Below are positions 46,984-56,351 of a stretch of DNA of 64,000 nt, one piece after another. A program made the position numbers and the translations under genes. The notes under the pieces are model-generated. The model worked only from the letters and a program-made list of their open reading frames with translations. It was not told the origin of the DNA and searched no databases. The first letter of the stretch is position 1, and each line of letters begins with the position of its first letter. This DNA is from Gemmatimonadota bacterium (lineage in GTDB: Bacteria; Gemmatimonadota; Gemmatimonadetes; Longimicrobiales; Gaopeijiaceae), in contig JAPPNN010000049.1 of NCBI GenBank assembly GCA_028873815.1, forward strand, positions 1 through 64,000. The letters are read 5' to 3'.

Positions 46984-46989
46984 GAGCCC

Positions 46990-47037
46990 GTGGACAAAAT
47001 CCCCCCGGCATTCGAGCGTCGATGCATCCGGGCCGGA
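46990..47037 (-). repeat. Dispersed repeat, inverted module 2 (left of the mobile element)
   Basis: Reverse complement of bases 93-140 of copy A, 47 of 48 positions identical. Match weakly continues outward to about 46986. Its partner module 1 is at 51142-51227 in the same inverted orientation, on the other side of the insertion. Before insertion the two modules were separated by about 80 bases. Confidence 0.8.
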
Positions 47038-47065
47038 CGCTCGGCCTCACCTCGTCGCGCTGTAA

Positions 47066-47073
47066 ATCAAAGT
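47066..47073 (+). repeat. Target site duplication, left (ATCAAAGT)
   Basis: ATCAAAGT directly abuts the left terminal inverted repeat and is repeated exactly at 51090-51097 after the right one. Eight bases is the duplication length known for the IS1595 family. Confidence 0.92.
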
Positions 47074-47097
47074 GGTGATTGTGTACTTGACTCACAC
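47074..47097 (+). repeat. Left terminal inverted repeat
   Basis: 24 bases beginning GGTGATTGTGTACTTGACTC, identical in reverse complement to 51066-51089. It includes TTGACT, which may be the -35 box of an inward promoter. Confidence 0.93.
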
Positions 47098-47115
47098 GGA
47101 ATGAGCCGCTAACTT
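47087..47115 (+). promoter_or_regulatory. Possible inward promoter formed partly by the left end
   Basis: TTGACT (47087-47092, inside the terminal repeat) and TAACTT (47110-47115, just inside the element) are spaced by 17 bases. It would read toward the 109-aa gene and the transposase and would be antisense to the small minus-strand frame at 47118-47291. Confidence 0.45.
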
Positions 47116-47117
47116 CC

Positions 47118-47291
47118 CTAAGTGGATGCGTTATCGGCAGTTCCGTTGTACTCGGCCAAAACACGGTCGGCTTCTTTGAGTACACGCTTGCCGAGCACGG
47201 ATTCCATGATTTCGCGGTCGGTCTTGTCCCCGATGTTTCGGGGCACCTTACGCCGCCGCACGGACTTCTTTCGCTTGGGAGTGTGAGCCAT
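47118..47291 (-). CDS. Small basic protein, 57 aa, hypothetical
   Basis: Reads AHTPKRKKSVRRRKVPRNIG then a helical DREIMESVLGKRVLKEADRV. Basic N-terminus followed by an amphipathic helix, possibly a small DNA- or RNA-binding protein. Its ATG shares a CCATGG palindrome with the ATG of the plus-strand gene at 47290, so the two starts overlap back to back. No ribosome binding site is seen, and a plus-strand promoter may run through it. It may be a real gene or a fortuitous frame. Confidence 0.4.
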   Translation of the reverse strand: MAHTPKRKKSVRRRKVPRNIGDKTDREIMESVLGKRVLKEADRVLAEYNGTADNAST

Positions 47292-47619
47292 GGCTACCAA
47301 CGGTTTCGGGAACGGGCTTGACGCCCTGCTGGGCGATCCCGGCGACACTGACATGCTGGAGAAGTACAACCGGGCGTTGGGAGACGCGATCGCATTACGA
47401 ATCGCCCTCCAACTCCTTCTGCGGAGCGGGACCGTCGCCGGACGGAATGCTGAACAGGTATCTGAGGCCCTCCGCGAATGTAAGGCCCGCTTCAAGCATG
47501 AATGGATCGCCGCTGGCGGCGAGATCCAGCCCTCTTGGACCGTAGCGCGCTATCACTCGTTCGCGGAAACGATGGACGAGATCATCAATGGATTCCGCGC
47601 CGCCGGTCGGAGCGGGTGA
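47290..47619 (+). CDS. Hypothetical protein, 109 aa (element cargo)
   Basis: Mostly helical (TDMLEKYNRALGDAIALRIA, then EQVSEALRECKARFKHEW), no signal peptide or membrane segment, function unknown. GGGAG lies eight bases before the ATG. It ends 16 bases before the transposase start, on the same strand, so the two are probably cotranscribed and it could be an accessory to transposition. I do not recognise a family. Confidence 0.6.
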   Translation: MATNGFGNGLDALLGDPGDTDMLEKYNRALGDAIALRIALQLLLRSGTVAGRNAEQVSEALRECKARFKHEWIAAGGEIQPSWTVARYHSFAETMDEIINGFRAAGRSG

Positions 47620-47635
47620 GGAAAGGGAGTCAGCC

Positions 47636-48526
47636 ATGAAGAACATCAACCTCGTTTCGCTGTTGGACCGTTACAACACGGATGATAGGTGCCGGGACGC
47701 CTTGGAGGCAATTCGGTGGCCGTCCGGCGTGGCTTGTCCGCGGTGCGGCGACATGGACGTATCCGAGATCACCACGCGCAACGTGTGGGCGTGCGCGTCG
47801 TGCGACTACCGCTTCAGCGTGACGGTCGGAACGATCATGCACCGCAGCCACCTGCCGCTACGCAAGTGGTTCCTCGCGATCTACCTGATGTGCGAGTCCA
47901 AGAAGGGCATGAGCGCCAACCAGCTCAAGCGTAGTCTCGGGGTCCAGTACAAGACGGCGTGGCACCTCTGCCACCGGATCCGCGAGGCGATGGGCAACGA
48001 CCCGTTTACCGGCCCTACCCTCGTCGGCATCGTCGAAATGGACCAGACGCTGATCGGCGGGAAGGCCAAGGGGAAGGACTGGCGGGACAACAAGCATTGG
48101 GTCGCCGGTGCTATCGAGCGGGGCGGGAGGGTTCGGCTGGAACGGATCCCCGACATCAGGAAGGGCACGATCCACGACTTCGTGAAGCGCACCATCAGCG
48201 ACGAGGCCGAGGCGATCTACACCGACGAGTTGCGGTCCCACGTCGGGCTTGAGACAGACACGAGGCGTCACGAGAGCGTCAACCACAGCGCCGAGGAGTG
48301 GGTGGTCGGCGATGTCCACACGAACAGCGTGGAAGGCGTCTGGAGCCTGTTCAAGCGGTCCATCGTGGGTAGCTTCCACAAGATGTCGGTCAAGCACATG
48401 GACCGTTACCTGGAGGAACTCGAGTGGCGGTTCAACAACCGCGACAACCCCTACATCTTTCGCGACGCGCTCCGGCGCATCATGCGGACCAGCCCGCTTG
48501 AGTACCGGACGCTGATCGCGAACTGA
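47636..48526 (+). CDS. IS1595 family transposase (ISXO2-like)
   Basis: 296 aa, normal length for the family. An N-terminal zinc ribbon has CPRCGD and CASC (about residues 34-55), followed by HRSHLPLRKWFLAIYLMCES and the helix-turn-helix GMSANQLKRSLGVQYKTAWH. The DDE-type catalytic core (about 130-260) has IVEMDQTLIGGK, IYTDEL and HTNSVEGVWSLFKRSIVGSF. It cuts and joins the element ends. The ATG at 47636 has AAGGGAG upstream. No frameshift or stop interrupts it. Confidence 0.93.
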   Translation: MKNINLVSLLDRYNTDDRCRDALEAIRWPSGVACPRCGDMDVSEITTRNVWACASCDYRFSVTVGTIMHRSHLPLRKWFLAIYLMCESKKGMSANQLKRSLGVQYKTAWHLCHRIREAMGNDPFTGPTLVGIVEMDQTLIGGKAKGKDWRDNKHWVAGAIERGGRVRLERIPDIRKGTIHDFVKRTISDEAEAIYTDELRSHVGLETDTRRHESVNHSAEEWVVGDVHTNSVEGVWSLFKRSIVGSFHKMSVKHMDRYLEELEWRFNNRDNPYIFRDALRRIMRTSPLEYRTLIAN

Positions 48527-48551
48527 TCCCGCGTCCACCATCAGCACCCCG

Positions 48552-48585
48552 AGGCCGGGGGCGTGTCGAAGCGCTCCCGGCCTTT
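48552..48585 (+). terminator. Intrinsic terminator after the transposase
   Basis: AGGCCGGG (48552-48559) pairs with CCCGGCCT (48576-48583), then TTT and C. It lies 26 bases after the transposase stop. Confidence 0.65.
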
Positions 48586-48638
48586 CCCATGGCATCCGGC
48601 CTACGGGTATCCCCATGCTGCCCAAAGGAGGCAGACCC

Positions 48639-48842
48639 ATGTCCAAGCGCTTGCCACCCCCCGAAAAGGCCCTTGCCGTCCTATTGCGCGGCATCAGCGG
48701 TCCTGTCCCGAGGACCAAGACCGAGATGAAGGAATCGGACAGGGCGTTCAAGGAGGAACTCAAGGAGTTGTTCAGGCCATCTGACGACGCCAGCGCCCCC
48801 CCCGAAATGCACGGCCACGATTTCGGGAAACATCTGGCCTAG
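48639..48842 (+). CDS. Hypothetical protein, 67 aa (element cargo)
   Basis: A near-perfect AAAGGAGG lies about seven bases before the ATG at 48639, much stronger than most host gene sites. The protein opens SKRLPPPEKALAVLLRGISG and continues with a charged helix (EMKESDRAFKEELKELFRPS). No membrane segment. Its stop overlaps that of the convergent 110-aa gene by three bases. Function unknown. Confidence 0.6.
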   Translation: MSKRLPPPEKALAVLLRGISGPVPRTKTEMKESDRAFKEELKELFRPSDDASAPPEMHGHDFGKHLA

Positions 48843-49171
48843 TCCAGATCAACTAGCCATTCGGCGCACCTGCGAGTCTCGTCCATCGCCGCATCCAAGC
48901 GCGTGTAGCGGGACGTCGGGGGCAATATTTCCTCCAACCCCCGAACCAGCGTCCAAAGCCAACTCACGAGTTCCGCCTTGGCGGATTCACTCAAATGGCT
49001 ACAGGCGGTTTCCAGCACGAAACACCGGGTACGAGATTCAGCGTAGTACGCGCCCAGTGCTTCGTCCTTGTCCAGAAAGCGTTCCGTCGGGTTGCTGAAG
49101 TGTTCCATCGGGATCGGGCCGGAAACAAACCCGGCCAGCATTTCAGCGGTGGGATGATCGTCGTTCGACAT
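48839..49171 (-). CDS. Hypothetical protein, 110 aa (element cargo)
   Basis: AGGAG lies about eight bases before the ATG. The acidic, helical protein contains EHFSNPTERFLDKDEALGAY and ETACSHLSESAKAELVSWLW and ends ETRRCAEWLVDLD. No signal or membrane segment; not recognised. It lies downstream of the lipoprotein gene on the same strand but two hairpins separate them. Confidence 0.6.
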   Translation of the reverse strand: MSNDDHPTAEMLAGFVSGPIPMEHFSNPTERFLDKDEALGAYYAESRTRCFVLETACSHLSESAKAELVSWLWTLVRGLEEILPPTSRYTRLDAAMDETRRCAEWLVDLD

Positions 49172-49201
49172 TTCTTGCTCCTGTTTGGAATGTCGGGCGT
49201 A

Positions 49202-49236
49202 GGCGGGTGGCCCGGGGTCAGAGCCGGGCGCCCGCC
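49202..49236 (-). other. Strong hairpin upstream of the 110-aa gene
   Basis: GGCGGG/CCCGCC (49202-49207 with 49231-49236) and GCCCGG/CCGGGC (49210-49215 with 49224-49229) stack into one long stem. It lies about 30 bases upstream of the minus-strand start at 49171. It could be a terminator for the lipoprotein transcript or a leader structure. Confidence 0.5.
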
Positions 49237-49304
49237 GCTTGTAGGTGGGATCGTGGGCTGTCAGAGGCTCACGGTCCCTTTGGGGGTGGCCGTTAGACTA
49301 CTCG

Positions 49305-49337
49305 CCCCCGTCCCTGAACAGCAACAGGGACCGGGGG
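49305..49337 (-). terminator. Hairpin just after the lipoprotein gene
   Basis: CCCC-GTCCCTG (from 49305) pairs with CAGGGAC-CGGGG (to 49337) with one bulged base and an eight-base loop. It begins nine bases beyond the stop at 49346. No long T-run follows. Confidence 0.45.
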
Positions 49338-49345
49338 GCTGTCTC

Positions 49346-50017
49346 TCAGCAATCGGTGGTGGTCATCCACACGGTATCGCTGAACATCGCGTCGAGCGGA
49401 AAGGATCCGCTTCCGCTCCTGTGCAGTAGCCGGTAGCCGTACCACGACGTGCCGCAGCCGATGACGCGCGGGGCGTGCGATCGCTCGATGTTGCGCCACG
49501 GGGCGGGGATGAACTCGACCTTGGTGGTGTCCCAGAAGTGCTGCCAGCGGACGAGCCCGAAGCAACTGCTCACCGTGAGGACGAGTCGGCCGCCGACCGC
49601 GTTGGTGTCGCCGGTGGTGCAACCGGAGAGGTTCGCGGTCACCGCGTCCACTGCGGCCTGGCCGATGACGATGAACCCGGCGCGCTCCATTTCGGCGCAG
49701 TCGGGAAAGCCCGCCCCGGGTTCCCGGTCGCACCTGATGATCCAAGGCTCGTTTTCCGACCGGGTGTAGGTGACGTGCACGCCGGGCGTTCCTGCGTATT
49801 GGGACGGCCGCGACAGGCCGCTCTCGTTGTGGAGCCAGTCGCCCCGCCTCACGGCGAAGGAATCGGGCGACAGCGCGATCGCCGGCACGGCGGCATACTC
49901 GATCGCGGGATGGGTTTCGGTCATGATCTCGGGCTCGCAAGCCGCGAGGACGAGGCAAAGGGCGATGAGGAGCGCGGCGAGCAGGGACACGGGGACGATA
50001 CGGGGTGTGATGCTCAT
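49346..50017 (-). CDS. Lipoprotein, hypothetical (element cargo)
   Basis: 223 aa. AGGAGG lies six bases before the ATG at 50017, a very strong site. The signal is RIVPVSLLAALLIALCLVLA followed by the lipobox cysteine (LAAC). The mature part is beta-rich with several further cysteines (RCDREPGAGFPDCAEMERAG, LSGCTTGD, SSCFGLVRW, VIGCGTSW, TTTDC) that could form disulfides, consistent with an extracytoplasmic domain. No known family. Such a protein on a small transposon is unexpected; surface exclusion or immunity roles are speculation. Confidence 0.65.
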   Translation of the reverse strand: MSITPRIVPVSLLAALLIALCLVLAACEPEIMTETHPAIEYAAVPAIALSPDSFAVRRGDWLHNESGLSRPSQYAGTPGVHVTYTRSENEPWIIRCDREPGAGFPDCAEMERAGFIVIGQAAVDAVTANLSGCTTGDTNAVGGRLVLTVSSCFGLVRWQHFWDTTKVEFIPAPWRNIERSHAPRVIGCGTSWYGYRLLHRSGSGSFPLDAMFSDTVWMTTTDC

Positions 50018-50353
50018 GGGGGGACCTCCTCCACACTTGGGACGATTCCCCGGCTTCCAGACGTGGAGCCGGGCCGTTGTCACCAATCAGTGGAGGAAAT
50101 GCTCCGACGGCCCCGCCTATTCACCCCTGGAGCGCGGCGCGGGAGCTACCCGCGTGTTCCGGCCCCGTAACGGAGCTGTTGTGTTCAGCGAGCGACCCGA
50201 CATAAGGGCCTCGCACTGATTGATGACCCGGAGACGGTACGCACCTGCGGCGAACACCGCAAGGGAAAGAGGGCCGCGCACCACGCCCCGAGCTACTTGG
50301 CGCACACCAACCGAGTCTCTTTGACTCACAGAAAGGAGGCAGTATCATGCAGC
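50018..50353. other. Gene-free stretch inside the element
   Basis: A hairpin with arms CCGGCT/AGCCGG lies at about 50051-50074. At the right end TTGACTCACA (50321-50330) repeats ten bases of the terminal inverted repeat, and TATCAT follows TTGACT after 16 bases (50343-50348). AAAGGAGG sits at 50332-50339. No convincing gene was seen on either strand. Confidence 0.5.
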
Positions 50354-51031
50354 ATGACCAAAAAACGAAAGCTGTTGGTTGGGGCGAAGGTGACCAACTG
50401 GGCTGCCAGCATTCCCGGCACGATCAAGGACTGGAAGGACATCGTGGCCGCTGTCCGCGAGAAGCTGTTCTCTGGGGCGATAGGCTTGTTGGTCGCCCCC
50501 GTAGCAGCATTCTTCACGTTCGTGGTGGCCGTCATGGGTAGCTGGGCGTGGTGGGAGGTGGTGATATTCGTCGTCCTGTGGGTGTGGGCGGCGTGCGCGC
50601 TGTGGTTCGGCTTTGACGCATGGTGGCAGAAGCGGACCACGACAACGCGGGACTTGGAGACCCACAGCCTCGACGGTTGGGGCGACATCCTGCCGGACAT
50701 GGAGCGGCTTGCGGAGAGGCTTCAGGCCGAACGCTTGGACAGGACCGGCGAGGATACGGTTCTGCTGAACCGGAACCGATTGAAGCTGGCGGGGATCGCG
50801 AAGCGGTTGGACGAGCGGGAGATCCCGCGCCCCGATCTGTGGCCCCAGCATGGCGAGACCAAGGAGTGGGAAACGTTTCTGTGGGGCTTCGTCCAGCGCG
50901 TGAACGCGAGCGAAGCCACCACGCTACCCACCCTCCATCAGGACGTGCGGGAGGCGCTCGAACAGCACCGCGAAGCATGGGACCCCGACAACCTTCTACG
51001 GCGCTACCAAGAGGAACAGGAACCCGAATGA
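50354..51031 (+). CDS. Two-helix membrane protein, hypothetical (element cargo)
   Basis: 225 aa. After a basic N-terminus (TKKRKLLVGAKVTNWAAS) come two closely spaced membrane helices at about 40-62 (AIGLLVAPVAAFFTFVVAVM) and 67-87 (VVIFVVLWVWAACALWFGF), then a hydrophilic, helical cytoplasmic domain of about 135 residues (GDILPDMERLAERLQAER, REALEQHREAWDPDN). The AAAGGAGG is 14 bases from this ATG and seven from an out-of-frame ATG at 50347, so the true start is uncertain. Family unknown. The two-helix plus soluble-domain layout resembles membrane effectors of some defence systems, but no motif proves it. Confidence 0.6.
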   Translation: MTKKRKLLVGAKVTNWAASIPGTIKDWKDIVAAVREKLFSGAIGLLVAPVAAFFTFVVAVMGSWAWWEVVIFVVLWVWAACALWFGFDAWWQKRTTTTRDLETHSLDGWGDILPDMERLAERLQAERLDRTGEDTVLLNRNRLKLAGIAKRLDEREIPRPDLWPQHGETKEWETFLWGFVQRVNASEATTLPTLHQDVREALEQHREAWDPDNLLRRYQEEQEPE

Positions 51032-51065
51032 GAGGCTACCGAATCCCCCGAAAACCAGCTATCTT

Positions 51066-51089
51066 GTGTGAGTCAAGTACACAATCACC
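51066..51089 (-). repeat. Right terminal inverted repeat
   Basis: Perfect inverted copy (24 of 24) of 47074-47097. It ends the IS1595-type element and is directly followed by the target duplication. Confidence 0.93.
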
Positions 51090-51097
51090 ATCAAAGT
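51090..51097 (+). repeat. Target site duplication, right (ATCAAAGT)
   Basis: Exact repeat of 47066-47073. Joining the left flank to this copy rebuilds the palindrome GTAAATCAAAGTTTAC. Confidence 0.92.
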
Positions 51098-51125
51098 TTA
51101 CACAATGTCATGTTTACTTTACGAT
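51097..51125 (+). promoter_or_regulatory. Probable lpdA promoter abutting the mobile element
   Basis: TTTACA (51097-51102) and TACGAT (51120-51125) are spaced by 17 bases. The first T is the last base of the target duplication. The spacer contains AATGTCAT, also present in the matching block upstream of the SDR gene (56312-56351). The leader to lpdA would be about 185 bases and would include the inverted repeat module. In the uninterrupted site a 16-bp palindrome overlapped the -35 region. Confidence 0.55.
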
Positions 51126-51141
51126 TGGGGTGTCGGGGCCG

Positions 51142-51227
51142 CGCTCTGCGTTGCTCCTCGCGCCCGTAGCGCTGCTACTGGCCCTTCGTCGCGCCTTGCC
51201 CGCCCGGCGCCTCGCCGCTCTCGGTGC
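51142..51227 (-). repeat. Dispersed repeat, inverted module 1 (right of the mobile element)
   Basis: Reverse complement of bases 1-86 with 84 of 86 positions identical. It lies in the 5' leader of lpdA. The remaining gap to lpdA (51228-51316) has TTTCCACGGGCTGCC (51268-51282), related to the end of module 2. Confidence 0.85.
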
Positions 51228-51316
51228 TCGGGCGGCTTTATCCACGGACTCCTAGGTTAGCTTTCCACGGGCTGCCGACCGCGGTCCCGGAATCACACCC
51301 TGAAGAGAGGTTTCCC

Positions 51317-56273: not shown

Positions 56274-56311
56274 CCCTGAACCCTCCCGGTTGGATGGACA
56301 GGTTCCCCATG

Positions 56312-56351
56312 GTAAACTCCAGTTTACTTAATGTCATCTTTGGTTTACAAG
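56312..56351 (+). promoter_or_regulatory. Palindromic operator plus promoter upstream of the SDR gene
   Basis: GTAAACTCCAGTTTAC (56312-56327) is an almost perfect palindrome. TTTACT (56323-56328) and TACAAG (56346-56351) are spaced by 17 bases and could be the promoter. The block AGTTTACTTAATGTCATCTT matches the rebuilt empty site before lpdA at most positions. A TetR- or GntR-type repressor would be a natural binder; none is encoded adjacent. Confidence 0.55.

Follow-up and report, generated by a model that had tools for sequence, protein, structure and literature searches.

A cargo-bearing IS1595-type transposon in a repeated intergenic palindrome of a Gemmatimonadota genome, with a covarying leader RNA before its lipoprotein gene

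The stretch of DNA analysed here, referred to as the window, comprises 64,000 nucleotides of a Gemmatimonadota genome of the family Gaopeijiaceae (contig JAPPNN010000049.1), and its positions 47074-51089 are occupied by a complete IS1595-type transposon with cargo, i.e., an element of the tIS type. The frame of this element, a cargo-bearing member of the IS1595 family, is ordinary, and two of its parts are unusual: a target formed by a repeated palindrome and a covarying leader RNA before a lipoprotein gene, the leader being the stronger of these two results. The locus as a whole is probably explained by a cargo-bearing IS1595 transposon whose insertion is centred on a palindrome, and which carries a pair of envelope genes with a leader-controlled lipoprotein. 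A wider proposal, in which an IS1595 group would home to a genus-specific intergenic tandem palindrome, and a new cis-regulatory RNA switch would serve transposon-carried envelope lipoprotein genes from genome to genome, is offered tentatively, as something that falls just short of an even balance.

The ends, the target duplication and the core genes of the transposon are the following:
47066-47073 (no strand), left copy of the 8-bp target duplication, ATCAAAGT, at the centre of the interrupted palindrome TGTAA-N8-TTACA
47074-47097 (+ strand), left terminal inverted repeat, starting with GG
47118-47291 (- strand), conserved basic open reading frame (ORF) of 57 aa, between the terminal repeat and the transposase gene
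47588-48526 (+ strand), IS1595/ISXO2-type transposase, 312 codons, with an alternative start at 47636 (296 aa)
51066-51089 (- strand), right terminal inverted repeat
51090-51097 (no strand), right copy of the 8-bp target duplication, ATCAAAGT

The two terminal repeats agree without mismatch over 24 nt, or 25 nt counting one base of the duplication; the duplication is exact, and the transposase frame is uninterrupted, matching DDE_Tnp_IS1595 (1.6e-32) and Zn_ribbon_IS1595 (6.3e-15) in Pfam and transpos_IS1595 in NCBIfam (195 bits, with a cut-off of 75). A matching transposase enclosed by a perfect 24-nt repeat and an exact 8-bp duplication is no product of chance, and several marks of the IS1595 family are found here, namely a DDE transposase with an N-terminal zinc ribbon, GG ends, an 8-bp duplication and, inside the ends, passenger genes. 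A first-pass annotation, made from the letters alone, had described perfect 24-bp repeats beginning with GG, the exact duplication, an intact IS1595/ISXO2-type transposase and frames of 109, 67, 110, 223 and 225 aa inside the ends, and had concluded that the element is complete and carries cargo; all of this has been borne out. It had also considered the insertion probably recent, which is supported by the intactness of the element. The palindromic target, the structured leader and the conserved 57-aa frame were absent from that annotation. In the assembly to which the window belongs (87 contigs, 86% complete), there is a single full copy of the transposon.

The 57-aa ORF is part of the minimal element. 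It has been found at 11 other loci, nine of them with a related transposase; one of the 11, L030, holds a cargo-less element of 1159 bp, flanked by an exact 8-bp duplication of its own, with the transposase and the 57-aa frame. The core unit would resemble the L030 element, with a transposase that presumably binds the 24-bp ends, and the small basic protein. The conserved core of this protein, encoded beside the terminal repeat, reads PRNI..KTDREIME..F.KRV.

Of 196 related genomes, 41 share DNA with the element, for the most part in short segments. Two of the related elements, L024 (3850 bp) and L025 (3559 bp), each make up an entire contig with the terminal repeat at both ends, and the record of L024 gives a coverage of 323 in its title; L028 has lost its right end. 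Several related elements in relatives also carry cargo, and the proteins matched by the cargo bear Gemmatimonadota names. The existence in relatives of other loci with matching ends, on which the first-pass annotation had staked its interpretation beforehand, is thus confirmed. Two of the named records are metagenome-assembled genomes (MAGs), and names of this kind suggest that they come from sponge symbionts. One of the two, G104, was deposited as Gammaproteobacteria, yet it is classified in the same family as the window.

The insertion site and its surroundings are described by these features:
46987-51253 (no strand), outer limits of a block absent from the relative locus L168 (genome G004), composed of 46987-47073 and 51098-51253 and split by the transposon; an intergenic repeat resembling a miniature inverted-repeat transposable element
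47061-47065 (+ strand), left arm TGTAA of the target palindrome
51098-51102 (+ strand), right arm TTACA of the target palindrome
51106-51123 (+ strand), second palindrome of the tandem, departing from TGTAA-N8-TTACA at two positions and spaced 21 bp from the first once the flanks are joined

When 21 relative loci were compared with the site, both flanks aligned in 11, only the lpd side in nine, and nothing in one. None of the 11 loci with both flanks holds the transposon or its cargo between them, so relatives do not have the passenger genes as a fixed part of this site; such fixation was the other outcome that had been named in advance as contrary to a transposon. The block around the target is also missing from them (208 nt in L167, 243 nt in L168). 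A block of roughly 240 bp, with ends like GTGGACAAA, recurs by eye in loci L111 and L122 of the same genome, and several times in genome G011. Its absence at the site in relatives and its recurrence elsewhere indicate that the intergenic repeat came first, and that the transposon was inserted into its palindrome later.

The pattern TGTAA-N8-TTACA occurs at 18 sites in the genome of the window, where the reversed control pattern has none. Among the 59 genomes searched, copies per genome number 0-368 in the 23 belonging to the genus, where the control gives 0-1, and 0-1 in the 36 others (control 0-2). The extremes within the genus are G011 (2.8 Mb), with 368 copies, and its congener G009, with 0. 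In 185.8 kb of G011, 21 of 22 palindromes lie outside called ORFs (coding fraction 0.88) and ten pairs are spaced exactly 21 bp; in the genome of the window, 11 of 18 are outside ORFs as called. The target is therefore a repeated, mostly intergenic palindrome, as in insertion sequences (IS) directed to repetitive extragenic palindromic (REP) sequences. Another imperfect tandem of the same pattern, also with 21 bp between its units, is present in the window at 56311-56349.

As for the related insertions, 9 of the 23 examined have GTAA directly outside the duplication, and in seven of them it is TGTAA. With a GTAA background of 8.4e-4 per base, the probability that this is due to chance is of the order of 1e-22 (binomial, calculated by hand). 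It can be proposed that insertion, with an 8-bp stagger, is centred on the dyad of the host palindrome, and that the transposase itself picks it; since the palindrome is repeated between genes, insertion would seldom disrupt a gene.

Several observations weigh against so general a target choice. Of the 23 insertions, 14 lack GTAA next to the duplication, among them the one of L025 (end L133), an element with cargo, which means either that the group as a whole does not share this choice or that some ends have decayed; most of the ends without GTAA are located on contig ends without a transposase, and most of the 23 insertions were assembled at one end only. Furthermore, seven rows had been dropped before this count, namely L066 and L043 (no GTAA), L031 (TGTAT, by eye), G015:C138 (for which no locus was made) and the distant-genome matches L044, L045 and L058 (all without GTAA), and their inclusion would turn 9/23 into 9/30. 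To these must be added the seven palindromes of the genome of the window that lie inside ORFs. The palindromic target is observed for part of the related insertions, 9 of 23, where targeting of the REP type would place most copies of the element in the palindrome.

The insertions located elsewhere, together with the fact that the block in the window is one among many intergenic repeats, would also agree with a mere preference for DNA shape, in which the transposase would favour A+T-rich symmetric sites, and palindromic repeats would just happen to be the most frequent sites of this kind, the genome being GC-rich. This explanation is rather unlikely: the letters are defined and stand at a fixed distance, with GTAA directly outside the 8 bp, and a second tandem palindrome adjoins the insertion (by eye) in the window, L028, L030 and L127. 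In a further alternative, the palindromes would be operators of a host regulator that recruits the transposase. The 18-bp dyads, their variable centre and the 21-bp tandem spacing, equivalent to two helical turns, are in line with it; however, the palindromes lie equally between convergent and divergent genes (6 and 6 of 21 in the 185.8 kb of G011), and their number varies from 0 to 368 within one genus, unlike that of an operator, which makes this the least probable of the alternatives considered. A choice of the palindrome by the transposase itself is preferred here.

IS1016 is a member of the IS1595 family. In the part of PMC1525189 consulted, it shows a low association with REP sequences (2/17 and 1/3), and the elements targeting REP palindromes are IS1397, ISKpn1, IS621, ISPpu9/10 and ISRm22, the five families represented in that 2006 survey being IS3, IS110, IS4, IS256 and IS5, without IS1595. 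The element of the window resembles them in its insertion in repeated intergenic palindromes, and differs in its family and in its palindrome, whose sequence is A+T-rich and not that of a REP. No report of palindrome targeting by IS1595 elements was found in the open-access literature.

The second unusual part lies between the two main cargo genes:
49346-50017 (- strand), lipoprotein of 223 aa, with a signal peptide and a LAAC lipobox (by eye)
50049-50073 (- strand), hairpin that takes up one strand of the leader's closing helix and thereby excludes it
50052-50206 (- strand), structured leader RNA that precedes the lipoprotein gene (motif Y, model R1)
50354-51031 (+ strand), membrane protein of 225 aa containing two hydrophobic helices and, at its C terminus, a helical domain; its gene is divergent from that of the lipoprotein

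In a similarity search within the related loci, the stretch upstream of the lipoprotein gene recurs 13 times, and RNAalifold folds it into four main helices, in which 12 of 26 pairs show compensatory changes. A covariance model located it at 64 places in 19 of the 59 genomes (18 of the 23 in the genus, one in another genus, and none of 24 from other families) and at 14 places in 8 of 37 further members of the family, hand-chosen by the analyst. Thus, the leader is present in 27 of 96 searched genomes, all of one family, with 1-7 copies in each. In 36 distinct copies, 95.9% of 961 cells are paired, with 79 double changes, where shuffles give 22.8 and slid controls no more than 27; in the 31 copies that had no part in model building, 96.0% of 826 cells are paired, with 81 double changes versus 20.7 and at most 26, respectively; slid controls reach at most 48% of paired cells, and these figures have to be read considering that the alignments are biased toward the model and that the shuffles, unlike the slid control, ignore relatedness. 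G-U pairs account for 123 of the 961 cells (hand count), and as they would be A-C on the other strand, the leader must be read on the strand of the lipoprotein mRNA.

A lipoprotein-like start follows 18 of the 36 copies under a strict rule, versus 9 of 210 control genes, and 21 of 36 under a looser one; outside the genus, five of the eight copies examined have such a start, by eye. A conserved, covarying secondary structure and a position 5' of a class of genes on the same strand, both characteristic of riboswitches and attenuators, are therefore observed. In addition, 35 of the 36 copies can form an alternative hairpin with the 3' strand of the closing helix P1. Because hairpin and P1 share this strand, they are mutually exclusive, and the possible replacement of P1 by the downstream hairpin suggests that the leader is a regulatory switch. 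It is proposed here that the lipoprotein mRNA would start with a structured leader of 150 nt, adopting alternately P1 or the hairpin, and that this choice probably controls lipoprotein expression.

There are also data that detract from a switch for lipoprotein genes: about half of the copies fail the strict lipoprotein rule, and a few stand before frames of an evidently different kind; single-sequence folds of four leaders are no better than shuffles (z of -1.26, 0.31, -1.48 and -0.42), and the alternative hairpin, in a GC-rich sequence, has a mean z of -1.46 (range -3.4 to +2.1). This only moderate advantage over shuffles would also fit a leader without any switch, acting as a promoter-and-leader cassette, or as the site of an RNA-binding protein, that travels with shuffled lipoprotein genes. 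Such a cassette is a serious possibility, though one that we do not favour: the restriction of the leader to one family, its few copies per genome and their presence both inside transposons and elsewhere agree with it, but every helix covaries, even those not needed for gene shuffling, and the copy at 2214-2334 of L078, which lacks hairpin P4, retains P1-P3.

The leader is similar to riboswitches and other 5' leader RNAs in its several covarying helices, its place 5' of genes and its mutually exclusive hairpin, and differs from them in that it matches no Rfam family at threshold, the best score being 15.8 bits (anti-hemB, on the other strand, with a cut-off of 49.5). No report of this RNA was found in the open-access literature, in which a paper on Palauibacterales contains riboswitches only in a reference.

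With regard to the proteins, the lipoprotein and the membrane protein have seven relatives each, besides themselves, in a large protein set, and among 118 related genomes, that of the window included, the membrane protein is present in four and the lipoprotein in three. A membrane gene divergent from the leader and a lipoprotein gene is found in the window, L025, L028 and L036, while in L024 the leader and two lipoproteins lie opposite a different small membrane protein. The cargo would thus be an envelope pair transcribed outward from one common intergenic region. Two proteins, P0002 and P0003, share with the membrane protein of the window the C-terminal half (84 and 78%) and not the N-terminal helices; judging from these sequences, the membrane proteins are mosaics, with a common C-terminal half and exchanged N-terminal helices. 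Less favourable to one recurring pair are the membrane genes of L025 and L028, which have at most a distant similarity to that of the window (25% and 3e-4 for L025), and locus L036, with one terminal repeat and no transposase in the stretch examined.

Profile searches of the cargo proteins, recommended in the first-pass annotation, have been run, and nothing in Pfam, PHROGs, PADLOC, NCBIfam or PDB sequences exceeded the cut-offs except for the transposase. Residues 43-207 of the membrane protein show a weak likeness to PspM, a phage-shock envelope protein (E 0.0088), which at 16 bits, against a cut-off of 80, is a lead and not membership; the membrane protein has an all-helical structure model (pLDDT 68), and no relative of it was found in viral contigs. 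It may be that the pair alters the cell envelope. The same annotation had suggested an envelope-level trait such as immunity, exclusion or defence, and the anatomy behind this suggestion is supported by the recurrence of the lipoprotein and the membrane protein as a divergent pair; no positive evidence was found for immunity, exclusion or defence. A role in superinfection or entry exclusion, or in phage resistance, in which the lipoprotein would mask a receptor and the membrane protein would block DNA entry, would be in keeping with two such proteins on a mobile element, both variable between elements and rare in relatives. However, PADLOC gave no match, PHROGs matches were at chance level, the lipoprotein has no match among PDB sequences and a model too poor for use (pLDDT 43), and copies of the leader also precede large lipoproteins outside transposons; this role is improbable.

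The transposon contains, in addition, the following features:
47290-47619 (+ strand), ORF of 109 aa, with relatives in L029 (56%) and L032 (72%)
48615-48842 (+ strand), ORF of 75 (or 67) aa, with no relative among the loci compared
48839-49171 (- strand), ORF of 110 aa, starting with MSND
49163-49281 (- strand), motif X, a conserved stretch with a hairpin immediately upstream of the 110-aa ORF, found at 10 places in the loci compared

The hairpin of motif X is GC-rich, and several of its 10 places precede small proteins beginning with MSN. The inner part of the terminal repeat recurs inside the element, just before the membrane gene (50321-50333, + strand), and the equivalent place of L025 holds an exact 12-nt match to its own terminal repeat.

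IS1595 elements with passengers (tIS) were already known. The founding paper of the family, that of Siguier in 2009, is cited in PMC5704250 for the frontier between IS and transposons. Two elements with passengers, MTnSag1 and tISCpe8, which figure in PMC5704250, share with that of the window the IS1595 transposase, terminal inverted repeats of about 25 bp, the 8-bp duplication and the passenger genes. They differ in being mobilizable and in conferring lincomycin resistance (tISCpe8, according to the title), whereas the element described here combines genes for envelope proteins with a structured leader and a target that is palindromic.

The target choice and the leader, by contrast with the cargo-bearing frame, appear to be new. 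Transposons that land in repeated palindromes spare their host from damage, and as the palindrome is easily counted, from 0 to 368 copies per genome, target choice by an IS1595 transposase is directly testable. Likewise, a covarying leader tied to lipoprotein genes lends itself readily to the testing of a new regulatory RNA.

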